Below, in pieces: positions 50,021 to 61,349 of a stretch of 64,000 bases of DNA. The notes beneath the pieces were generated by a model. That model was not told the DNA's origin. It saw only the letters and a list, made by a program, of their open reading frames with translations, and ran no database searches. The first letter of the stretch is position 1; each line of letters begins with the position of its first letter. Source of the DNA: Actinomycetota bacterium (lineage in GTDB: Bacteria; Actinomycetota; Actinomycetes; Nanopelagicales; Nanopelagicaceae); the NCBI GenBank assembly GCA_947372165.1, contig CANBSP010000006.1, forward strand, positions 1-64,000. Direction: 5' to 3'. The position numbers and the translations under genes were made by a program.

Positions 50021-50983
50021 TCAGAGTTGCTTCAAGAGCTCTTGAACTCGTTCTGCCGATGGATAGGAAGATTGAGTGCCAAGTCGAGTAACGCTATCTG
50101 TGGCGCAGAGGCAGCCAAGGCGGATCGCCGCTTCATCGGAGAGCCCCAGGGCGAGGCCAACGGCGAAGGAGCCAACCAAAGCATCGCCAGCCCCAGTCGT
50201 ATCCAGAGCCTTTACCTTTGGCGCCGAAACGCGAACAACTCGGCCATCTAAGGTCGTAAAGGCAGCCCCAGCCTCACCAAGGGTGACGGCAAAACGGGTA
50301 GAGAGACGGCTAGCGAGTTCAAGGATGATCTCATCGCTCGTTGGAGCCAGCCCTTCTGGGTGCATTGCGGCAAATTCGCTCTCATTAGGCATCACCCAAT
50401 CGCTGACTGCAAGAAGATCTGCAGTGATCGGGGAGTAAGGAGCGGGGTTGAGGATAGTTGGGATGCCCTTTGCCCTGGCGGCTCGAAAAGCGGCAGCGGT
50501 GACGTTCTGAGGGATCTCCAACTGGCCAACAACGACCGAGATATTGCCCAAACCCTCAATGGCAGATTGAGACTGCTCCTCTGTCATCAGATTATTTGCA
50601 CCCGGCACGATCAAGATGCGATTCGTTCCATCCGGTTCTACCCAGATCGGTGCGACGCCACTTGCGCCAGGAGCTCGGCGAACAAAATCTGTATTAATCC
50701 CTTGAGATTCGAAATTCTTGAGAGTACTGTCGCCAAAGAGATCATCGCCCAAGGTATTTACCATGGCAACTTTTATGCCAAACCTTCTTGCCATGCTCGC
50801 TTGGTTCGCACCTTTGCCACCGAAGCCAATGACAAAACTATCTGCTAGCAGTGTCTGCCCGCGATCTGGAATTTTTTTGGCATAGGTCACCATGTCAGTC
50901 ATCGTGCTACCGACTACGACAATCTGCGGTTCTTTACCCTGGCTTTCCTGGCTTTCCTGGCTTTCCTGGCTTTCCTGGCTCAT
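50021..50983 (-). CDS. rbsK: Ribokinase-like PfkB sugar kinase with repeated N-terminus
   Basis: The 320-residue PfkB-family kinase has VVVGSTMTDMV, the substrate glycines GGKGAN (55-60) and the catalytic DTTGAGDALVGSF near residue 260. Ribokinase is the best family match. It would phosphorylate ribose released by the nucleoside hydrolase and glycosylases encoded divergently. The N-terminus carries five Ser-Gln-containing repeats (ESQ) before the kinase fold begins at residue about 20, encoded by a 9-bp tandem array. No clear RBS precedes the ATG. The gene diverges from the Bmp transporter gene across 213 bp. Confidence 0.85.
   Translation of the reverse strand: MSQESQESQESQESQGKEPQIVVVGSTMTDMVTYAKKIPDRGQTLLADSFVIGFGGKGANQASMARRFGIKVAMVNTLGDDLFGDSTLKNFESQGINTDFVRRAPGASGVAPIWVEPDGTNRILIVPGANNLMTEEQSQSAIEGLGNISVVVGQLEIPQNVTAAAFRAARAKGIPTILNPAPYSPITADLLAVSDWVMPNESEFAAMHPEGLAPTSDEIILELASRLSTRFAVTLGEAGAAFTTLDGRVVRVSAPKVKALDTTGAGDALVGSFAVGLALGLSDEAAIRLGCLCATDSVTRLGTQSSYPSAERVQELLKQL
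50939..50980 (-). repeat. 9-bp tandem repeat in the 5' end of the ribokinase gene
   Basis: The plus strand shows CTGGCTTTC four times and then a partial copy (CTGGCT), starting at 50939. On the coding strand each unit adds Gln-Glu-Ser. The copies are identical, so copy number could change without shifting the frame. Confidence 0.95.
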
Positions 50984-51196: not shown

Positions 51197-52264
51197 ATGC
51201 AGAAGAAGACTCTAGGAAGAGCGTTAGCTGGCGCAGTTGCTGCAGGCCTCGCACTTTCTGTTGTATCACTAACTGGAACAGCTGCTTCAGCTGCACCAAA
51301 GAAGATGATTGGTATCGCCTTCGATCTTGGTGGAAAAGAGCAACCTGGTTTTAACCAGCTCGCATACATTGGTTACAAGACGTTCGCGAAGACCAACCCA
51401 GGCTGGACCGAAAAGGATCTCCAGGGTAATGGCGGAGATACAGATGCTTCACGCGCACAGCGCCTCAAGCTTCTCATCAGCGCTGGTTGCAACCCAATCG
51501 TTGTTGTTGGCTACTCATATGAGAACGCTCTCAAGACAGTTGCAGCAGCAAATCCAAAGATCAAATTCTCAATCGTCGATGACAATATCGATGGCGCAGC
51601 AAACGTTGAGGGTCTCCTCTTCCACGCTGAAGAAGGTTCATACCTCGTCGGCATGGCAGCAGCACTCACAACAAAGACAAATAGCGTCGGCTTCATTGGT
51701 GGCGTAAATATTCCTTTGATCCAGGCTTTCGAAGCAGGATTCAAGGCTGGCGTTTACAAGGTCAATCCAAAGATCAAGTACCAGTCAACCTACGCATCTA
51801 ACCCACCTGATTTCAGCGGATTCAATGCTCCTGATAAGGGACATGAAGCAGCTCTTGGTATGTACCAGAACGGTGCAGACGTTGTTTACTCAGCAGCTGG
51901 TTCAACCGGTCAGGGTGCACACAAGGCAGCCTTTGAACTCGGTAAGGGTCACTGGTCAATCGGTGTAGATGCTGATGAAGCTCTTTATGCGTCAAACGCT
52001 AAGTACAAGTCTGCAATCTTGACTTCTGCACTGAAGAACGTTGACGTCGGTGTCGCTTCATTCTTGAGCGATGTCGTTGGCAACACCTTCAAGCCTGGTG
52101 CTCACTTCTTTGATGCATCTAATGGTGGAGTTGGTTTCACAACTACAGGAAACTACCTCTCAAAGGCAACTGTTGCGAAGTTGAATGCTATTAAGTACTC
52201 ACTCGCTTCAGGTGCAATCGTTGTACCAACAGATCCAACAAAGGTAACCCTTCCACAGGGTTAA
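51197..52264 (+). CDS. Bmp/PnrA-family nucleoside-binding protein (ABC transporter)
   Basis: The 355-residue protein has a Sec signal peptide (cleavage near ASA, residue about 32) and a Bmp (PF02608-type) fold: GIAFDLGGKEQPGFNQLAY, NPIVVVGYSYENAL, EGSYLVGMAAAL and VVYSAAGSTGQGAHKAA. Characterised family members bind purine or other nucleosides and feed NupABC-type transporters, which matches the downstream ATPase and permeases. It has no lipobox cysteine, unlike most Gram-positive binding proteins, so how it stays at the cell surface is unclear. A hairpin follows the gene. Confidence 0.88.
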   Translation: MQKKTLGRALAGAVAAGLALSVVSLTGTAASAAPKKMIGIAFDLGGKEQPGFNQLAYIGYKTFAKTNPGWTEKDLQGNGGDTDASRAQRLKLLISAGCNPIVVVGYSYENALKTVAAANPKIKFSIVDDNIDGAANVEGLLFHAEEGSYLVGMAAALTTKTNSVGFIGGVNIPLIQAFEAGFKAGVYKVNPKIKYQSTYASNPPDFSGFNAPDKGHEAALGMYQNGADVVYSAAGSTGQGAHKAAFELGKGHWSIGVDADEALYASNAKYKSAILTSALKNVDVGVASFLSDVVGNTFKPGAHFFDASNGGVGFTTTGNYLSKATVAKLNAIKYSLASGAIVVPTDPTKVTLPQG

Positions 52265-52316: not shown

Positions 52317-52348
52317 GTGGTGGTCTTTGGGAAACCAGAGGCCACCAC
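52317..52348 (+). terminator. Hairpin with 14-bp stem and GAAA tetraloop between binding protein and ATPase genes
   Basis: Positions 52317-52330 pair with 52335-52348 over 14 bp, with two G-U pairs, closing a GAAA loop of the GNRA type. A T-rich stretch (CGTTTTAACTTTATCT, 52353-52368) follows. This looks like a partial terminator or 3'-end stabiliser that would leave the binding protein mRNA more abundant than the rest of the operon. Confidence 0.8.
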
Positions 52349-52420: not shown

Positions 52421-53935
52421 TTGTCACTCGCAATTGAATTAAAGGGTATTGAGAAGAATTACCCAGGTGTGGTCGCCAATCACGATGTAGATATCACCAT
52501 CGAAAAGGGCAATATCCACGCAATCATCGGTGAAAATGGTGCGGGCAAATCCACATTGATGAAGATCCTCTACGGCATGGTGAAGCCAGATGCTGGCACC
52601 ATCTCTATCTTCGAATCACCCGTCACAATCAAATCTCCTCAAGATGCCATTGGCCTTGGGATCGGAATGGTTCACCAACACTTTATGTTGGCAGATAACG
52701 CCACAGTCCTAGAGAACATCGTCCTAGGAAGTGAACCAATGAAGGCAAAGGTCGTTGTGGACTATGCCAAAGCCCGTGAGAATCTCCAGAATATTATTAA
52801 GACCTACGGCCTCGACATTAACCCTGATGACTTAGTGGCTGATCTTGGTGTTGGCATGCGGCAACGCGTTGAGATCGCAAAGGTTCTCTTTCGCGGTGCA
52901 AAGATTTTGATTCTCGATGAACCAACTGCAGTTCTGGTCCCGCAAGAAGTGGATGAACTCTTTAAAAACCTCAAGGTCTTGACTGCCAATGGCCTGACCA
53001 TCATCTTCATCTCCCACAAACTCGATGAGGTCATGGCTATTGCAAATAGCATTTCGGTAATGCGTCGCGGTACTACTGTGGCAGAGCTTGTTCCAAGTAA
53101 GACGAATAAGAAAGAACTTGCTGAATATATGATTGGTGGCGAGCTCCCATCGCCACGGCCTGCAACAACGAAGCCTCGTGACGAGAAAGTTCTTGTTGTT
53201 GAAAATGCCAGCATTAATGATCGAACTGGCCGCGAAGTCCTCCACAGCGTTAACCTGGAGATTCATGCTGGCGAGATCTTGGGGCTAGCTGGTGTTGAAG
53301 GAAATGGTCAGGACGAGCTCATTGAGATGATCATGGGATTGGTGAAGCCAGATTCAGGATCAGTGACGACCGTCGGACTTGATACTCGAGAGAGTTCCCT
53401 TCGAGAGATTCGAGATCATGGCGTGGGTTATATCCCTCAAGATCGTCAACGTGATGGTCTGCTGATGGCAGCGCCATTATGGGAGAACCGGATCTTGGGC
53501 CACCAAGAGACGAAGCCGATGTCTAATGGCCTCTGGATTGATAAGGGTGCAGCGAAGAAGGATTCACAACGCATCATTGAAGAGTTCGATGTTCGTACGC
53601 CAAGTAATAGCGTCTCAGCTAACGCCCTCTCTGGTGGAAATCAACAGAAATTTATCGTGGGACGTGAGATGGCAGGGGATCCAAAGATGTTGATCGCCGC
53701 TCAGCCAACACGTGGCGTCGATGTAGGTGCTCAGGCAATTATTTGGGATCACCTCATTGAGGCAAGACTTAATGGAACCGGAGTTCTCTTGGTTTCTGCT
53801 GATCTTGATGAACTCTTCAAGCTCTCCGATCGAATCGCAGTCATCTTCCGCGGCACGATCGTTGATTACTTAGATCCACGAACTACCACGCCTGAAAAGC
53901 TGGGCTTGGCAATGACAGGAGAGAAGATCGCATGA
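52421..53935 (+). CDS. Nucleoside ABC transporter ATPase (two fused domains)
   Basis: The 504-residue protein starts at TTG and has two ABC domains. Domain 1 has Walker A GENGAGKST (37-45), Walker B ILILDEPTAVL and the atypical signature VGMRQRVEIAK. Domain 2 has a P-loop lacking the usual Lys (GVEGNGQDE), signature LSGGNQQKFIVGREM and PTRGVDVGA. Fused ATPases with a weak second P-loop are the rule in the RbsA/NupA class of sugar and nucleoside importers. It overlaps the first permease gene by 4 nt. Confidence 0.9.
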   Translation: MSLAIELKGIEKNYPGVVANHDVDITIEKGNIHAIIGENGAGKSTLMKILYGMVKPDAGTISIFESPVTIKSPQDAIGLGIGMVHQHFMLADNATVLENIVLGSEPMKAKVVVDYAKARENLQNIIKTYGLDINPDDLVADLGVGMRQRVEIAKVLFRGAKILILDEPTAVLVPQEVDELFKNLKVLTANGLTIIFISHKLDEVMAIANSISVMRRGTTVAELVPSKTNKKELAEYMIGGELPSPRPATTKPRDEKVLVVENASINDRTGREVLHSVNLEIHAGEILGLAGVEGNGQDELIEMIMGLVKPDSGSVTTVGLDTRESSLREIRDHGVGYIPQDRQRDGLLMAAPLWENRILGHQETKPMSNGLWIDKGAAKKDSQRIIEEFDVRTPSNSVSANALSGGNQQKFIVGREMAGDPKMLIAAQPTRGVDVGAQAIIWDHLIEARLNGTGVLLVSADLDELFKLSDRIAVIFRGTIVDYLDPRTTTPEKLGLAMTGEKIA

Positions 53936-55035
53936 AGAAGCTCAATAAACTCTTCTGGGCACTCGCTGCACCAGTAGCTGCAATTATCTTTACTCTGATC
54001 TTTGTCTCCATCATCTTGCTCTTCAAAGGAGCCAACCCGCTCTCCACTTTCCAGTTGATCGCAAGTTATGGAAGTCAAACAGACAATATTGTCGCCGAAC
54101 TCAATCAGACTGTTGCCTATTACCTAGCAGGTGTTGCAGCGGCAATTGGTTTCCGAATGCTCCTTTTCAACATTGGTATCGATGGTCAATATCGGTTAGC
54201 GATCTTTTTCGCAGCGGTAGTTGGCGGAGCAACTAATCTTCCGCCCTTCCTCGAAGTCCCGCTCATTGTTATCACTGGTATGGTCGTTGGCGCGCTATGG
54301 GCATCGATCGCTGGTTACCTCAAAGTGAAGCGCAATATCTCCGAAGTTATCTCGAACATCATGCTCAATACCATCGCCTCCGGCTTGATCATCTACCTCC
54401 TCCAACCAAGTCGACTCGGTTTAAAGGGGAAGAGTTCAGATAACTTGGCAACGCCAATGATTCCAAAATCCGGGTGGATGCCGACCTTCCATATCTTCGG
54501 TGGCCAGCTCTATAGCTTTGGTCTCGTTGCTATTGCGGTAGGCGTTCTCTACTGGATCGTTCTCAATAAGAGCGTCTTCGGTTTTAACCTACGTGCGACC
54601 GGAATGTCATTTAGAGCAGCCCGCGCCAGTGGTGTGAATGCACCGCGGATGGTCTTCATCACGATGGCGATCTCTGGTGGAATCGCTGGACTTACTGGCA
54701 TGGGTGAGCTCTTAAGTAATACTCACACCTACAGCCTCGCATTTCCAACCGGTTATGCGCTCACTGGCTTGGCGCTTGCTCTTTTAGGGCGAAGTAATCC
54801 CATCGGTATCGCAATCGCTGCTTTCTTCTGGTCATTCCTCGAGCAGGCTGCGCCTGCCTTAGATCTTAACGGCGTGCCTAAAGAGATCGTCATGATGATG
54901 CAAGGAACTATCATCTTGGCAACAGTGACTGCTTATGAAATTGTTAAGCGAATTACACGTCGTCAACAGCAACGCCTGGTTGGAGCCTCCGAAGCCCCAC
55001 GGGTCGAAGCTGCTGAGAAGGGAGATAAGAAATGA
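53932..55035 (+). CDS. Nucleoside ABC transporter permease 1 (NupB/YufP-like)
   Basis: The 367-residue protein has about nine to ten helices and the BPD_transp_2 pattern: FRMLLFNIGIDGQYRLAIFF, VKRNISEVISNIMLNTIASG and a late ALTGLALALLGRSNPIGIAI. It pairs with the next permease to form the channel. Its start overlaps the ATPase stop (ATGA) and its stop overlaps the second permease (ATGA). The last 30 residues are a charged cytoplasmic tail. Confidence 0.88.
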   Translation: MKKLNKLFWALAAPVAAIIFTLIFVSIILLFKGANPLSTFQLIASYGSQTDNIVAELNQTVAYYLAGVAAAIGFRMLLFNIGIDGQYRLAIFFAAVVGGATNLPPFLEVPLIVITGMVVGALWASIAGYLKVKRNISEVISNIMLNTIASGLIIYLLQPSRLGLKGKSSDNLATPMIPKSGWMPTFHIFGGQLYSFGLVAIAVGVLYWIVLNKSVFGFNLRATGMSFRAARASGVNAPRMVFITMAISGGIAGLTGMGELLSNTHTYSLAFPTGYALTGLALALLGRSNPIGIAIAAFFWSFLEQAAPALDLNGVPKEIVMMMQGTIILATVTAYEIVKRITRRQQQRLVGASEAPRVEAAEKGDKK

Positions 55036-56285
55036 GTAACTCCCAAGCAGGCACAAAATCGATCGGTAATCGCCTTTGGAAGATCATCACATCGCCATCG
55101 CGGATGATGCTGACAGTTGGTGCCGTCGTCATCTTGGTCTCAGTTATACGCCAATTCACTGGTATTGATGACATAACATCCCCAGGTGCTACCGGTGCAA
55201 CTATTCGATTTACGATTCCAATCTTGATGGCAGGACTTGGTGGCCTCTGGGCCGAACGTTCTGGTGTTATCAATATTGGACTTGAAGGAATGATGATTCT
55301 CGGCACCTGGTTTGGTGCCTGGTTCGGTTTCCTTTATGGGCCATGGGTTGGAATTCTTGCTGGTGCCATTGGTGGTGCAATTGCCGGCCTACTCCACGCA
55401 GTCCTCACAGTCCGCGTAGGTATCGATCAAGCGGTCTCTGGTCTTGCCATTAACCTGCTCGGGGCCGGAACAGCGCGCTTCCTCTCAGGCGTCTTCTTTA
55501 TCGGCAAAGGCGGAGATGTAAATATCTCACCTCAAGTGAACTCGACTGGTTCATTTACCGTCCCAGGTTTGAGCCCATTCCTCACAACGATCGCTCACAA
55601 ACATATTCTGGTTATCTCAGATATCGCCGGTGTCTTTGCGGGATTTGTCACCAAGATCAACTGGGCCTCACTTGTCATGTTCTTGGCCTTGCCGCTAACA
55701 GCGTGGATTCTTTGGAAGACTCGATTCGGTCTTCGGATGCGCTTCTGTGGTGAGAACCCGGTCGCGGCTGAATCGTTAGGTGTTAACGTTTATCGCACCC
55801 GCTTCATCGCCTTGGCAGTCTCTGGCGGTTTAGCTGGTCTCGGCGGCGCATATATCTCGATCGTCTCTACCGGAAATTACCTCGAAGGCCAGACCGCCGG
55901 TCGCGGTTATATTGGTCTTGCTGCAGTGATCTTCGGCAACTGGACCCCTGCCGGTGTTCTTGGTGGATCCGTTCTCTTTGGACTTACCGATGCGCTCCGC
56001 GTGCGCCAATCAACATCAGTGCACGCCCTCCTTCTTATCGTGATCTCACTTGCCGCTGCATATGGCTTAACCAAGCTTCGTAAGAAGGATTGGAAGGGCT
56101 TCATCATCAATATGGCTATTGCAGGTCTCGTACTTGCCTATTACATGGTGAATAAAGTTGTTCCAGATGAGTTTGTGACCTTCTTCCCTAATCTGACGAC
56201 GATTCTGGTACTCGCATTTCTATCGCAACGATTGCGGCCACCTGCCATGGCAGGTGCTCCGTACCGAAAAGGAGAGGAAGGATAA
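55032..56285 (+). CDS. Nucleoside ABC transporter permease 2 (NupC/YufQ-like)
   Basis: The 417-residue permease of the BPD_transp_2 family has GLWAERSGVINIGLEGMMI near 72-90 and GLAAVIFGNWTPAGVLGGSV near 295-315, typical of the second permease of purine-nucleoside importers. It is longer than usual, with two extra C-terminal hydrophobic segments. The next gene begins 3 nt downstream. Confidence 0.88.
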   Translation: MSNSQAGTKSIGNRLWKIITSPSRMMLTVGAVVILVSVIRQFTGIDDITSPGATGATIRFTIPILMAGLGGLWAERSGVINIGLEGMMILGTWFGAWFGFLYGPWVGILAGAIGGAIAGLLHAVLTVRVGIDQAVSGLAINLLGAGTARFLSGVFFIGKGGDVNISPQVNSTGSFTVPGLSPFLTTIAHKHILVISDIAGVFAGFVTKINWASLVMFLALPLTAWILWKTRFGLRMRFCGENPVAAESLGVNVYRTRFIALAVSGGLAGLGGAYISIVSTGNYLEGQTAGRGYIGLAAVIFGNWTPAGVLGGSVLFGLTDALRVRQSTSVHALLLIVISLAAAYGLTKLRKKDWKGFIINMAIAGLVLAYYMVNKVVPDEFVTFFPNLTTILVLAFLSQRLRPPAMAGAPYRKGEEG

Positions 56286-56288
56286 CCA

Positions 56289-57284
56289 ATGCCACCTTTA
56301 GATTTTTGGGAGTCTAAAGTTCTCAAGAGTCTTGACCCCGTCGTTAAAAATTCGACGCTCGTAAAGGTCAACGAAGCGAAGATCGCAGAAGTCGCTTCAT
56401 GGATGGCATATGAAGAGTTTGCAAAGCCAGATGGCTCCTCACTCTTCAACTTTGGCGATGATCCAGATTTCTTGATGGATCTCACTCTCACGGTGAATAC
56501 GATGAATTTTGCATTCACTAACTTTGGCACGGGCATTAAGTACGAGACTGATTACAACGGTCGTCGTTATAGTGATTCAGAAGCAATGATGGCAAACCTT
56601 CATCGCGCAGTTGCTGAGGGCATTCCATTCTTCGATGGCGCATACCAAGCGAAGATGGTTCGTGCTGATCTCGAACAAGTCTTCCAGGGCACGATTGAGA
56701 TGCCGATGCTCGATGAGCGAGTGAAGATCTTTAATGAGGTCGGAGAGATCCTCGTCGCTAAATACGGTGGAAAGTGGCACAACTTCGTTCGATCCTGTGC
56801 ACCTCGGCTCTATGCCGATGGCAACGGCATCCTCGAACGACTCACAACGGAGTTCCCACGCTTTGCCGATACCTCTGAGTATCAGGGTTCAGAGATCCAG
56901 CTCTACAAGCTGCCACAACTTGGAATCTGGGGGATGCACCTAGCCCTAATGCCACGCAAGGTCTGGGCGTTAGAAGATGCCCATCTGCTCACCGCCTTCG
57001 CGGATTACATCGTCCCCGTTGGGCTTCGCGTCATGGGAATCTTTGAATATGCACCCGAGCTTGAGTCACAGATCAACTCACTCACAGAGGTCCCTCGAGA
57101 CAGTGTCGCCGAAATTGAGATTCGCGCGAATTCGATCTATGTCATTGCGCGGCTGACTGAAGAGATCAATGCCAGACGCGTTGGTTTAGAACCGCTCTTG
57201 ATGCCACAAGTTGATTTCCGACTTTGGAAGGCCTATCACGCAACCCACTGGCCTCACCACCTTACGAGAACGGTTATGTATTAA
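56289..57284 (+). CDS. DUF2419 / queuosine-salvage glycosylase-like protein (Qng1 family)
   Basis: The 331-residue soluble protein matches the DUF2419 (queuosine salvage, Qng1/C9orf64) family along its length: TVNTMNFAF near 68-76, KIFNEVGEILVAKYGG near 146-161, LLTAFADYIVPVGLRVMG near 233-250, VAEIEIRANSIYVIARL near 273-289 and the tail VDFRLWKAYH. Characterised members hydrolyse queuosine 5'-phosphate to queuine. D239 in FADY aligns, from memory, with an Asp of that active site. The gene lies 3 nt after a nucleoside permease gene and directly before a nucleoside deoxyribosyltransferase-like gene, which supports nucleoside cleavage. Substrate here could be queuosine, its phosphate or another modified nucleoside. 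Confidence 0.8.
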   Translation: MPPLDFWESKVLKSLDPVVKNSTLVKVNEAKIAEVASWMAYEEFAKPDGSSLFNFGDDPDFLMDLTLTVNTMNFAFTNFGTGIKYETDYNGRRYSDSEAMMANLHRAVAEGIPFFDGAYQAKMVRADLEQVFQGTIEMPMLDERVKIFNEVGEILVAKYGGKWHNFVRSCAPRLYADGNGILERLTTEFPRFADTSEYQGSEIQLYKLPQLGIWGMHLALMPRKVWALEDAHLLTAFADYIVPVGLRVMGIFEYAPELESQINSLTEVPRDSVAEIEIRANSIYVIARLTEEINARRVGLEPLLMPQVDFRLWKAYHATHWPHHLTRTVMY

Positions 57285-57733
57285 TGAAGATCTACTTTGC
57301 AGGTCCGCTCTTTACCCCGTACGAGCGATCATTTATTGATGAATGTGCTGCGAGATTACGTGCCGAAGGCATGGAAGTCTTTGTCCCACATGAAATCCCA
57401 CTGCCAGATCCAGTGACGCCAGCATTTATCTTTGATGTTGATTCGGCAGCTGTCTTGGGTGCCGATGCAATCCTTGCGCTCCTTGATGGCCCTATGGTTG
57501 ATGATGGAACTGCTGTCGAGATCGGGATCTTCTGGAGTGCGATGCGCACTGACTCCTCTAAAAAAGGAATTGTTGGGTTAGTCACTGATACCCGAGTCAT
57601 CCGCGATCGCAAGATGATTGACGGCAAGGGAATCAACCTCTTTGTGAGAGGCTGCATTGAAGATCGTGGTGCACTCGTTGATAACTTTGATAGGGCCTTT
57701 GAAATCTTGAAGGCATGGCATGAAGAGAAGTAG
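57284..57733 (+). CDS. Nucleoside 2-deoxyribosyltransferase-like protein
   Basis: The ATG at 57284 overlaps the previous stop by one base and gives 149 residues; a longer in-frame reading lies inside the previous gene. KIYFAGPLFTPYER at the N-terminus and DDGTAVEIGIFW (catalytic Glu in EIG, near residue 84) identify the nucleoside 2-deoxyribosyltransferase fold. Family members swap bases between deoxynucleosides or hydrolyse deoxynucleoside 5'-phosphates. Which activity applies is unknown, but it fits nucleoside salvage. Confidence 0.85.
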   Translation: MKIYFAGPLFTPYERSFIDECAARLRAEGMEVFVPHEIPLPDPVTPAFIFDVDSAAVLGADAILALLDGPMVDDGTAVEIGIFWSAMRTDSSKKGIVGLVTDTRVIRDRKMIDGKGINLFVRGCIEDRGALVDNFDRAFEILKAWHEEK

Positions 57734-57745
57734 ATCATCGCGTGA

Positions 57746-58921
57746 ATGCTGACCTCATATAAGACTGTCTTAAAGAAGGATCACTCCTTCTCAACCTTTG
57801 GCTTCGGGATTATTGGCAGGTTGCCACTCGCCATGAACACAGTGGGCTTGGTCTTCCTGATTTCCAGTGTCCGAAAATCCTTCGCATTGGCCGGCCTTGC
57901 CTCCGCCTGTTACACCCTGGCTGGGGCATTTCTTGGGCCTCGGATTGGCAAGCTTGCTGATGTGAAAGGGACCCGAAAGGTCCTTATTCCCATTACTTTG
58001 CTCAACGCCCTCGCGATTACCGGCATTCTGACAATTGGTGTGAAGAACACGCCTGCGCTCTTGGTCAGCGCCGCATTGGCAGGTGCCACATTCCCACAAT
58101 TTGGCAGTTACACCCGCACGAGGTGGAGCCGAACACTTAAAGATGACCGCGAACTCACTGCAGCTCTCTCTTTGGAGTCTGTACTCGATGAGACCGCCTT
58201 CGTTGTTGGGCCAGCACTTGCTGGCTTTCTCTTCGCTTGGCAAGGGTCAAGGTCACCGTTAATCGGTGGTGTGATCTTCCTTCTGATCGCCGGATTTGGA
58301 CTATCACTCACGAGTACCGATCATGCCGGGCATGTTCAGCCTGAAGGTAAACACGGTGGTTTGCTCAAGATTCGATATGTTAAACCGCTACTTGCCACAC
58401 TGGTCTGCATCGGCATCACCTTTGGTGCGCAGTACGTCGTGATCTTGGCAGTTGCACGCGAAGGTGGCAGGGCCGCTGAAGGTGGACTCTGGGTTGGATT
58501 AAATCCGATCGGCAGTACTGTCGCTGGTTTTGCCTTTGGATTTATTCATTGGAAGATCTCGGCAGCGAAGCGATTGACCGCCGCCCTATTCACGATGTCA
58601 CTTGGCACATCAGGACTTGTGATCTTTCATAGTTATCACACAATTATTCTCTGGCTCATTATCGCCGGTGTCGCCATCGCACCAGCTTTGATTTCGGCAA
58701 ATGAACGACTCAAAGAGTTAGTACCAGTTCATCGACTCAATGAAGCTTTCTCATTGCTCGGTGCATCAATCTCACTTGGCATCACGATCGGTGCATCCCT
58801 GAGCGGCGTACTTGTCTCGCACTTTGGCGGCTGGCATGGCTTCGACTTTATGTTGGGTGCAACTGCACTTGCTTGTTTGGTCTCACTCATCGGCATACGT
58901 GGAAAGAAGATGGAGAGTTAA
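57746..58921 (+). CDS. MFS transporter
   Basis: The 391-residue protein has about twelve helices in two halves, with the loop GPRIGKLADVKGTRKVLIP after helix 2 recalling MFS motif A. It resembles drug- and sugar-efflux type carriers of the family. Because it sits in the nucleoside operon, export of unused bases or sugar, or uptake of a related solute, is plausible but not shown. It starts 12 nt after the previous gene; the nucleoside hydrolase follows after 1 nt. Confidence 0.8.
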   Translation: MLTSYKTVLKKDHSFSTFGFGIIGRLPLAMNTVGLVFLISSVRKSFALAGLASACYTLAGAFLGPRIGKLADVKGTRKVLIPITLLNALAITGILTIGVKNTPALLVSAALAGATFPQFGSYTRTRWSRTLKDDRELTAALSLESVLDETAFVVGPALAGFLFAWQGSRSPLIGGVIFLLIAGFGLSLTSTDHAGHVQPEGKHGGLLKIRYVKPLLATLVCIGITFGAQYVVILAVAREGGRAAEGGLWVGLNPIGSTVAGFAFGFIHWKISAAKRLTAALFTMSLGTSGLVIFHSYHTIILWLIIAGVAIAPALISANERLKELVPVHRLNEAFSLLGASISLGITIGASLSGVLVSHFGGWHGFDFMLGATALACLVSLIGIRGKKMES

Positions 58922-58922
58922 G

Positions 58923-59855
58923 ATGGCTATGAGAGTTATCCTCGATACAGATCCAGGCATTGATGATGCCCTTGCCATTCTCCTTCTCGGCGCATCTGCC
59001 GAAATCTCACTTGAAGCGATTACCGTCACCCATGGCAACACCACTGTCGATAAGTGCCTTGCTAATGCGCTGCGACTAGTTGATCTTGCCGGTCTCTCTG
59101 GGGTTCCAGTGGCACGTGGGGCAAGCAGCCCGCTGGTGAAGAGCCTCACGGTTGCGGAAGAGACTCATGGTGATGGGGGACTTGGTTATGCCGTTCTCCC
59201 TGATGCGAAGGGCACAGAAAGCGCGAAGAATGCAATCGATACGATCATCGATCTCGTTCATCAATATCCGCATGAGATAACGATCCTGGCGATTGGGCCA
59301 TGTACAAATATCGCCTTAGCAATCCATAAGGATCCATCGATCATCACCCTGATCGATCGAGTAGTTGTGATGGGCGGGGTTGTTCATGCACCAGGCAATA
59401 TGACGCCAGATGCAGAGTTCAATATCTACTGTGATCCAGAAGCCTTCGATATCGTCCTGCGAGCAGGATTTGATCTGACGATTGTTCCACTCGATGTGAC
59501 ATATCAATGCCTCTTCACTAAATCCCATGTGGCTCGTCTGACATCGGCAAAGCCAGAGATCGCCACCTTTATTGAAGATTCGACTCGCTTCTACATGGAG
59601 TTCCACGATGAGTATCAAGATATTGATGGCTGCGCGATTAATGATCCACTCGCCGCAGCAATTCTCATCAAGCCAGAACTCGTGAAGCTTCGTGATTATT
59701 ACATGACCGTTGAGCTTAAAGGTGAGTTCACCAAGGCGAAGACATCAGTTGATCACTATAAAATTTCGGGAAAGACTCCCAATACCAAAGTTGCGATGGC
59801 GGTAGATGTCGAAGCCTTTATGGATTTCTTCATTGAGCGGATGGCGAAATTATGA
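58923..59855 (+). CDS. Nucleoside hydrolase (inosine-uridine preferring type)
   Basis: The ATG at 58923 gives 310 residues; longer upstream readings lie inside the MFS gene. DTDPGIDDALAIL (8-20) holds the calcium-binding Asp cluster, and GNMTPDAEFNIYCDPEAF and INDPLAAA complete the active site. The enzyme hydrolyses ribonucleosides to base and ribose, and the ribose could be taken up by the divergent ribokinase. It overlaps the first phosphorylase gene by 4 nt. Confidence 0.92.
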   Translation: MAMRVILDTDPGIDDALAILLLGASAEISLEAITVTHGNTTVDKCLANALRLVDLAGLSGVPVARGASSPLVKSLTVAEETHGDGGLGYAVLPDAKGTESAKNAIDTIIDLVHQYPHEITILAIGPCTNIALAIHKDPSIITLIDRVVVMGGVVHAPGNMTPDAEFNIYCDPEAFDIVLRAGFDLTIVPLDVTYQCLFTKSHVARLTSAKPEIATFIEDSTRFYMEFHDEYQDIDGCAINDPLAAAILIKPELVKLRDYYMTVELKGEFTKAKTSVDHYKISGKTPNTKVAMAVDVEAFMDFFIERMAKL

Positions 59856-60604
59856 GTAAGCAGCACCATATCCATCTTGAACCCGGAGATGTTGGTCGGT
59901 ATGTGCTCATGCCAGGAGATCCAGGACGGGTCGAGGTAATCGCCAAGCACCTGGATAACGCAGTTCATATCGCGACAAATAGAGAGTATGTGACCTATAC
60001 GGGTTATCTCGATGGCGTGAAAGTCTCGGTGACATCGACCGGAATCGGTTGTCCATCAGCTGCAATTGCCTTGGAAGAGCTCGTCCGCGTAGGCGCAGAT
60101 ACCTTTATCCGCGTCGGCACATCAGGTGCGATCCAACCTGGGACCAAGAGCAATGAACTGGCCATCATCACTGGTGCAATTCGAGATGAAGGGACGTCGA
60201 TCCACTACTTGCCGCCAGAGTTTCCTGCCGTGGCCAACCTTGAGATCGTGCAAGCGCTACGCAAGGCGGCGACCTCATCGAATACTCCCCATCGCCTCGG
60301 GATCACTCAGTCGAAGGATTCGTTCTATGGCGAAGTTGAGCCCGAACGCTCTGGCGTCCCTGACCGGCTTTTAAAGCGATGGAAGGCGTGGGAGATTGGC
60401 GGGGCAATCTGTTCTGAGATGGAGTCCTCCACCCTCTTTGTCGTTGCATCAATCCTCGGAGTTCGAGCAGGTGGCATTATGGCAATGTGGGCCGATGGCG
60501 AATTTCGTGGTTTGGATTCACTGATCGAGACAGCAATTTCTGGTGTTCGGGAATTAATCAAGGAAGATAGCAAAATTAAGGGAGATAACAATGGAGACAG
60601 CTGA
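59852..60604 (+). CDS. Uridine phosphorylase family protein, copy 1
   Basis: The 250-residue NP-I family phosphorylase has the phosphate-binding region MPGDPGRVEVIA, VTSTGIGCPSAAIALEEL near 56-73, RVGTSGAIQ and the C-terminal EMESSTLFVVA with the ribose-binding Glu. Phosphorolysis gives base and (deoxy)ribose 1-phosphate. Uridine phosphorylase is the closest subfamily. It overlaps the second copy by 14 nt, and both share a 41-nt identical block. Confidence 0.88.
   Translation: MSKQHHIHLEPGDVGRYVLMPGDPGRVEVIAKHLDNAVHIATNREYVTYTGYLDGVKVSVTSTGIGCPSAAIALEELVRVGADTFIRVGTSGAIQPGTKSNELAIITGAIRDEGTSIHYLPPEFPAVANLEIVQALRKAATSSNTPHRLGITQSKDSFYGEVEPERSGVPDRLLKRWKAWEIGGAICSEMESSTLFVVASILGVRAGGIMAMWADGEFRGLDSLIETAISGVRELIKEDSKIKGDNNGDS
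60011..60051 (+). repeat. 41-nt block identical in both phosphorylase genes (copy 1)
   Basis: This block encodes the DGVKVSVTSTGIGC region and is identical to 60762-60802, while flanking third-codon positions differ. Confidence 0.9.
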
Positions 60605-61349
60605 CGGCAAGCAGTATCACATCAATATGAAGAAGGGTGATGTCGGAAAGTATGTGCTCCTTCCCGGTGATCCTGGACGTTGTGAGGCGATCGCTGCGCT
60701 CTTTGATAATCCTGTGCACGTTACACAAAACCGTGAATACAACACGTGGACTGGCACATTAGATGGCGTGAAAGTCTCGGTGACATCGACCGGAATCGGT
60801 TGCCCATCTGCTGCGATTGCGCTGGAAGAGCTCGTTCGTATCGGTGCAGATACCTTTATTCGCGTCGGGACTTCTGGACACATTCAAAAAGATATTAAAT
60901 CTGGCGAACTTGCCATCATTAATGCTGCGATCCGCGATGAAGGCACATCCCTCCACTACATGCCGATTGAATTTCCAGCGATCGCTGATATCAACCTCGT
61001 GTTAGCACTACAACGAGCCGCGAAGAAGACCGGTGCAGTTCATAGAACGGGCATCACGCAATCGAAGGATTCGTTCTACGGTCAACATGAGCCAGAGCGC
61101 ATGGGCGTTGGTCCAGATCTCCTTAATCGCTGGCGAGCATGGGAGATCGGCGGGGCGCTCTGTTCAGAGATGGAAGCTTCTGCGCTCTTTGTCATCGCCT
61201 CCATGCTGCGCGTGCGGGCGGGGGGAGTGATGATGGTTCATGGTGTTGATCCAATGCCGCCGCTCGATATTCTCTTGCAGACTTCAGTTCAGGCGCTTCG
61301 CGAGATCATCGCCGAAGATAAGGCGAATGGTCGGGCGGTAGATCTATAA
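60591..61349 (+). CDS. Uridine phosphorylase family protein, copy 2
   Basis: The 252-residue paralogue of the previous gene keeps LPGDPGRCEAIA, VTSTGIGCPSAAIALEEL, RVGTSGHIQ and EMEASALFVIA. It differs in the base-binding half (for example MPIEFPAIADINL and HEPERMGVGPDLL), so base specificity may differ between copies. It is the last gene of the operon. Its end overlaps the convergent DUF3107 gene by 6 bp. Confidence 0.88.
   Translation: METADGKQYHINMKKGDVGKYVLLPGDPGRCEAIAALFDNPVHVTQNREYNTWTGTLDGVKVSVTSTGIGCPSAAIALEELVRIGADTFIRVGTSGHIQKDIKSGELAIINAAIRDEGTSLHYMPIEFPAIADINLVLALQRAAKKTGAVHRTGITQSKDSFYGQHEPERMGVGPDLLNRWRAWEIGGALCSEMEASALFVIASMLRVRAGGVMMVHGVDPMPPLDILLQTSVQALREIIAEDKANGRAVDL
60762..60802 (+). 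repeat. 41-nt block identical in both phosphorylase genes (copy 2)
   Basis: Identical to 60011-60051; see that entry. Confidence 0.9.

Follow-up and report, generated by a model that had tools for sequence, protein, structure and literature searches.

A DUF2419 protein in a nucleoside transporter operon of a freshwater actinobacterium belongs to a distinct subfamily and may be a ribonucleoside N-glycosidase

Introduction

What does a protein of the DUF2419 family do when its gene lies inside a nucleoside transporter operon? Under its Pfam model, any PF10343 gene is labelled queuosine salvage, and Qng1 serves as a signature of queuine users in the sections of PMC11130926 cited here. The question is raised by a gene at 56289–57284 (+) in a 64,000-nucleotide stretch of actinobacterial DNA, the whole of which is called the window below. 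The original prediction was that imported queuosine, or another modified nucleoside, is cleaved inside the cell by the encoded protein.

A DUF2419 protein with a Qng1-like fold

The gene encodes a protein of 331 aa and is preceded, on the same strand, by genes for a Bmp/PnrA-type substrate-binding protein (51197–52264, +; PF02608), an ABC ATPase (52421–53935, +; PF00005, matched in two stretches), ABC permease 1 (53932–55035, +; PF02653) and ABC permease 2 (55032–56285, +; PF02653). It is followed by genes for a nucleoside 2-deoxyribosyltransferase family protein (57284–57733, +; PF05014), an MFS transporter (57746–58921, +; PF07690), an inosine-uridine nucleoside hydrolase family protein (58920–59855, +; PF01156) and two uridine-phosphorylase-like proteins (59852–60604, +, and 60591–61349, +; both PF01048, and both under the curated NCBIfam cut-off). 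The nucleoside ABC operon setting that had been proposed is therefore present, and the gene lies where it was said to lie, between a permease gene and a deoxyribosyltransferase-like gene. Three bases separate it from permease 2, and it overlaps the PF05014 gene by one base if the latter starts at the ATG at 57284, the start assumed here in place of the TTG at 57224 in the list of open reading frames. Upstream of the operon, and divergent from it, is a gene for a PfkB kinase of the ribokinase kind (50021–50983, −), assigned by its profile and its nearest solved relatives. A hairpin of 14 pairs with a T-rich tail occupies 52317–52348, between the binding-protein and ATPase genes; such matches are not evidence of function.

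Membership of the DUF2419 family, as claimed in the original prediction, is confirmed. In a Pfam profile search, the protein matches PF10343 (Q_salvage) at 179.5 bits over residues 60–331 (cut-off 25, E 1.4e-52), and this is the sole PF10343 match in the 1.36-Mb source genome (94.3% complete). No NCBIfam model matches the protein at E 0.001. The nearest PDB sequences are the Qng1 crystal chains 7uk3 and 7u07 (E 1e-42, residues 12–331), and the human Qng1 chain 7ugk aligns at E 1.5e-22. A Qng1-like fold is likewise confirmed by a model made with AlphaFold2 on 48 subfamily rows, that is, 47 of 80 kept loci plus the window protein (alignment A3); its mean pLDDT is 92.1. The structures of StQng1, presumably from Sphaerobacter thermophilus, are its best fold matches. 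For example, Foldseek aligns the model with 7uk3 at E 9.2e-19 and a TM-score of 0.86, and the first nine chains together with the human one give TM-scores of 0.84–0.87 at 23%–30% identity. DNA glycosylases are the next rows, with E-values that lack significance.

The catalytic center is kept. K199 and D231 of StQng1, which are mutated in 7u5a and 7ulc, correspond in the alignment to K207 and D239 of the window protein, and the predicted FADY segment is there and holds D239, opposite D231 of 7u07. Also present, as in Qng1 (7uk3, 7u07, 7u91 and human 7ugk), are E275, E277, R279, D309, W313 and H324. Unlike these similarities, the identity to Qng1 is only 29%–30%, and the equivalents of R200, R317, G92 and Q/H236 are replaced.

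A separate subfamily

Is the protein an ordinary Qng1? A search of the phylum found a PF10343 match in 16 of 396 genomes, 13 of them over the cut-off: the source genome, three genomes (G195, G490 and G408) with proteins 48%–55% identical to the window protein, and nine with what are here called canonical proteins. A scan for relatives of the window protein found 139, of which 80 were kept. By record titles, the subfamily occurs in Nanopelagicales, Acidimicrobiia, Chloroflexota, Acidobacteriota and Gammaproteobacteria, with many records titled only “bacterium” or “Actinomycetota.” Five loci titled Bifidobacterium breve or Streptomycetaceae (L117, L118, L119, L122 and L132) have genes that group with the freshwater order, and these titles look wrong. 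No phage copies of the gene were found in a scan of viral contigs or, at E 0.001, in PHROGs.

In a tree of 96 rows, the 84 subfamily rows and the 12 canonical rows lie at opposite ends of a branch 2.62 changes per column long, with support of 100/100; the tree is midpoint-rooted, long branches meet at the split, and several canonical rows drew a tool warning for unusual composition. The window protein does not group with StQng1 and human QNG1. The canonical set is small: nine actinobacterial genomes from two families contribute ten rows, and the remaining two are StQng1 and part of human QNG1. All 84 subfamily rows carry the catalytic Lys and the catalytic Asp, the latter being the residue whose retention bears directly on the original prediction. 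Nevertheless, 24 positions are at least 95% fixed in the subfamily to a residue absent from the 12 canonical rows. As a yardstick, the 33 rows of the window's own order, Nanopelagicales, differ from the other 51 subfamily rows by 5 fixed differences, with group sizes that differ from those of the comparison giving 24.

Several of these replacements affect residues that are invariant in the canonical set (numbered here as in 7u07). R200, G92 and A170, the same in 12 of 12 canonical rows including St and human, are Leu, Asp and Gly in 84 of 84 subfamily rows (L208, D96 and G178 of the window protein); R317, found in all 11 canonical rows that cover it, is Leu in 83 of 83 (L325). Position 236, Gln or His in canonical Qng1, is Val in 82 of 84. 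Position 207 is Asp in nine and Asn in three canonical rows; at least 73 of the 84 subfamily rows have Gly, Gln, Ser or Thr there. The two groups share K199, Q202, F229, D231, P235, E267, E269 and R271. The window protein is thus a member of a distinct DUF2419 subfamily. Our guess is that R200 and R317 of canonical Qng1 hold the 5'-phosphate. No publication that sets such a subfamily apart was found in the literature on DUF2419, Qng1, PF10343/IPR019438 and a ribokinase pairing, a search that covered open-access papers; Tables S2 and S3 of PMC11130926 may list such neighbors.

Conservation of the locus within the order

How stable is the association with a nucleoside transporter? The DUF2419 gene is present in 16 of 151 sampled genomes of the order and in 5 of 15 genera. 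Permease 2 adjoins it in all 14 stretches from relatives (L020–L033; L034 ends inside the gene and was left out). A PF01156 gene and at least one phosphorylase-like gene are found in 13 of these 14 stretches, and the MFS gene and the kinase in 12 each, with several stretches stopping before the outer genes. The PF05014 gene is inverted in several of them and has no match in L031. A permease 2 match of at least 54% identity (E up to 1e-70) occurs in 16 of 16 genomes with a PF10343 gene and in 0 of 135 without one, and chance was rejected as the cause of this linkage, with the reservation that related genomes are not independent.

A paralog of permease 2, with 43%–48% identity, is encoded in 34 of the 135 genomes that lack the DUF2419 gene. 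In six of the 14 paralog loci fetched from these hosts (L053, L054, L055, L059, L062 and L066, the six inspected), the genes that come after the permease gene resemble, as judged by eye, those for cytidine deaminase and pyrimidine phosphorylase, which suggests that the slot occupied by the DUF2419 gene after permease 2 can hold an enzyme for an imported nucleoside. As a separate observation, a DeoC-type aldolase gene is in the flanks of 21 of 32 loci of the order, downstream in 20 (for example, L109:17080–20299, where an aldehyde dehydrogenase gene comes after it); the window has no match to this aldolase.

A ribokinase homolog as the commonest neighbor

Among solved structures, the window kinase is closest in sequence to ribokinases (E 1e-47), the best of these matches being, we take it, human. 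Its profile score of 269 bits falls short of the curated ribokinase cut-off, 299.65 bits. Aligned with solved ribokinases, the kinase keeps GGKGANQ, QLE and DTTGAGD, which we assume to be marks of ribose binding and catalysis. Outside the order, a ribokinase homolog is the commonest neighbor found, in 30 of 51 loci (L103–L105, L140, L141 and L143–L188), as judged by tblastn likeness in the fetched flanks. It was found in 0 of 9 canonical loci. Indeed, none of the neighbor genes sought was found there with the same queries, in flanks of 0.8–8.1 kb that are shorter than the longest subfamily flanks (10 kb). In 15 of the 30 kinase loci, the kinase gene is divergent from the DUF2419 gene and adjoins it, with left ends 965–1104 bases apart. 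A PF01156 homolog was not found in the flanks of 20 of the 30, several of which are short, making the absence weak. Where no such hydrolase accompanies the kinase, and given its divergent, adjoining position in 15 loci, the source of ribose would have to be the DUF2419 enzyme. The kinase was not seen in 21 of the 51 loci, and in five of the 51 (L145, L155, L159, L173 and L188) the fetched flanks contain no sought neighbor.

Beyond the order, nucleoside genes surround the subfamily gene in two more lineages. Six loci (L143, L144, L146, L147, L148 and L150) have homologs of the window-type binding protein, ATPase, permease, MFS and PF01156 proteins. Among the 11 loci titled Acidobacteriota, six (L162, L166, L168, L172, L185 and L186) have a homolog of ureide permease in their flanks; the Acidobacteriota loci also have PF01156 homologs, a pyrimidine phosphorylase (L184 and L186) or a DeoC-type aldolase (L166, L172, L186 and L187).

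Queuosine metabolism of the host and of other carriers

Could the enzyme provide its host with queuine? The ABC transporter would then import queuosine among other nucleosides, the enzyme would free queuine, and the genome's TGT would insert it. The original prediction noted that tgt is absent from the window; this holds, and the genome's only PF01702 (TGT) match is elsewhere, on contig C2. The search of the genome for YhhQ (PF02592) and QueT (PF06177) came up empty at E 0.001 (94.3% complete), so a queuine supply route was not identified. The order looks like a TGT-only group. TGT is present in 144 of its 151 genomes, and QueA in 0 of 32 (16 with and 16 without the DUF2419 gene). QueT is in 0 of the 32, and YhhQ is in two (G037 and G041), both without the DUF2419 gene, too few to claim exclusion. 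In the sections of PMC11130926 cited here, most Actinomycetota of a gut set are described as having TGT alone and are predicted to salvage queuine. Queuosine may be one substrate of the enzyme, and its cleavage may matter in the order, where the searches turned up no queuine supply route.

There are two observations on the surroundings of tgt. YhhQ (PF02592) adjoins tgt in both G037 and G041 (L081:3996–4475 and L082:5477–5839). In the source genome, an MFS gene is divergent from tgt (L035:6234–7664), and 8 of 21 tgt loci, this one included, have a homolog of at least 45% identity next to tgt; the protein is a candidate base transporter.

Other features of the order argue against queuosine salvage. 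The DUF2419 gene is in 16 of 151 genomes, against 144 for TGT. The TGT pocket motif is GGAL[DN]K in 21 of 21 loci of the order (L002:1438–2679 and 20 relatives), and it is the same in 15 carriers and 6 non-carriers of the DUF2419 gene, which rejects a pocket change tied to that gene. According to the cited part of PMC10723273, GG[LS][AS]G marks a queuine-type and GGLAVG a preQ1-type TGT; the motif of the order fits neither. A preQ1 riboswitch lends the queuosine reading no support either, since nothing in Rfam, the preQ1 riboswitch families among them, scores over its cut-off in the window, and Rfam searches of eight subfamily loci returned one tRNA and nothing else.

The carriers outside the order differ from the host. 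TGT is present in 44 of 48, so an absence of TGT fails as a refutation of queuosine salvage. QueA is present in 41 of the 48 and in all of three more carriers from the phylum search, or 44 of 51. By comparison, QueA is in 2 of 9 canonical genomes, so finding QueA is not enough to rule out queuosine cleavage. Loci of TGT were fetched for 30 of the 44 TGT-positive carriers (14 were left out); one (L198) did not fit the motif pattern, and all 29 readable pockets are GG[LV][AS]VGE, whose Val is that of preQ1-type enzymes. Together, QueA in 44 of 51 and 29 of 29 preQ1-type pockets suggest that free queuine would be of little use in these carriers. In them, queuosine would be completed on the tRNA starting from preQ1, and queuine should be a poor substrate for their TGT. 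The argument holds well for the group but has exceptions: a Bartonella TGT has GGLAVG, and queuine served as its substrate above 500 nM, as given in the cited part of PMC10723273.

Which nucleoside is cleaved?

On balance, we slightly favor a role for the window protein as a ribonucleoside N-glycosidase in nucleoside uptake and catabolism, with the Lys/Asp pair and the DNA-glycosylase-like fold retained. In such a pathway, the Bmp-type ABC transporter would import nucleosides, and the DUF2419 enzyme would split one imported ribonucleoside into its base and free ribose. The divergent ribokinase would then convert the ribose to ribose 5-phosphate. Other nucleosides would be handled by the nucleoside hydrolase, phosphorylase-like and deoxyribosyltransferase-like proteins of the cluster. 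The substrate would then not be, or not only be, queuosine or its 5'-phosphate.

The other readings of the locus explain parts of the data. Queuosine salvage accounts for the Qng1 family and fold, and for a host with tgt and without a QueA, YhhQ or QueT match; we regard it as unlikely, though a serious contender, given the scatter of the gene among TGT-bearing genomes, the unchanged TGT motif and the replacement of canonical-invariant residues. The salvage route proposed for this locus stands as to family, fold, Lys/Asp pair, nucleoside-ABC setting and a genome with tgt and without a QueA match. An ordinary Qng1 for queuine supply is not supported, considering the distinct subfamily, its replaced residues, the QueA and preQ1-type pockets of other carriers, and the ribokinase neighbor. 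Salvage of another 7-deazaguanine nucleoside, such as preQ1 or preQ0 riboside, is improbable. It would suit the outside-order carriers, mostly QueA-positive with preQ1-type readable TGTs, and the Acidobacteriota loci with a ureide-permease homolog: in the cited sections of PMC11130926, an Acidobacteriota ureide permease beside qng1 transports preQ0 and preQ1 but, it seems, not Q, a result unexpected to its authors. It suits the window's own order poorly, where QueA is in 0 of 32 genomes and the TGT pocket departs from the preQ1 type.

It was also proposed that, with unchanged specificity, a kinase would be needed to make a 5'-phosphate. A kinase is indeed conserved nearby, and PDB titles name StQng1 complexes with queuosine 5'-phosphate, as a two-step route like that for pseudouridine would have it: a PfkB kinase would phosphorylate the nucleoside, and the DUF2419 enzyme would hydrolyze the nucleoside 5'-phosphate. 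However, the nearest solved relatives of this kinase are ribokinases, which favors free ribose as a product over a nucleoside 5'-phosphate as a substrate, and the two canonical-fixed Arg residues, phosphate ligands by our guess, are Leu in the subfamily. We therefore consider the two-step route very unlikely.

Returning to the ribonucleoside N-glycosidase, a broader possibility can be put forward tentatively. DUF2419 could hold a second enzyme type, a nucleoside hydrolase of DNA-glycosylase-like fold that cleaves ordinary ribonucleosides and is paired with a ribokinase in several phyla; such an enzyme, now read as queuosine salvage, would not have the fold of any known nucleoside hydrolase or phosphorylase.

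Relation to known systems and implications

The subfamily loci differ from those of canonical Qng1 in having a ribokinase and nucleoside genes nearby, as described above for the nine canonical loci. QueK is presumably a PF01156-like protein, and the window operon includes a PF01156 gene. QueK is a nucleoside-cleaving enzyme of queuosine salvage in the cited sections of PMC11130926 and PMC10723273, and the former places QueK and Qng1 in unrelated families. The six Acidobacteriota subfamily loci with a ureide-permease homolog resemble the Acidobacteriota qng1 of PMC11130926, which in the sections cited is treated as queuine-releasing, unlike the reading of the subfamily given here.

What would follow if the subfamily cleaves other nucleosides? 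A set of Actinomycetota, Acidobacteriota and Chloroflexota would then have been wrongly credited with queuosine salvage. If the qng1 gene of PMC11130926 is of the subfamily, the surprise over preQ0 and preQ1 for its permease, as worded in the part cited, would have a possible cause. Moreover, a candidate nucleosidase would be added to nucleoside use by freshwater actinobacteria. Ten subfamily loci without the kinase (L157, L170, L174, L175 and L177–L182) have nearby a gene of the PF02578 (multi-copper polyphenol oxidoreductase) type; the PF02578 profile was checked on L182 and the ureide-permease profile, PF07168, on L166, and for the remaining loci the counts are based on tblastn likeness.
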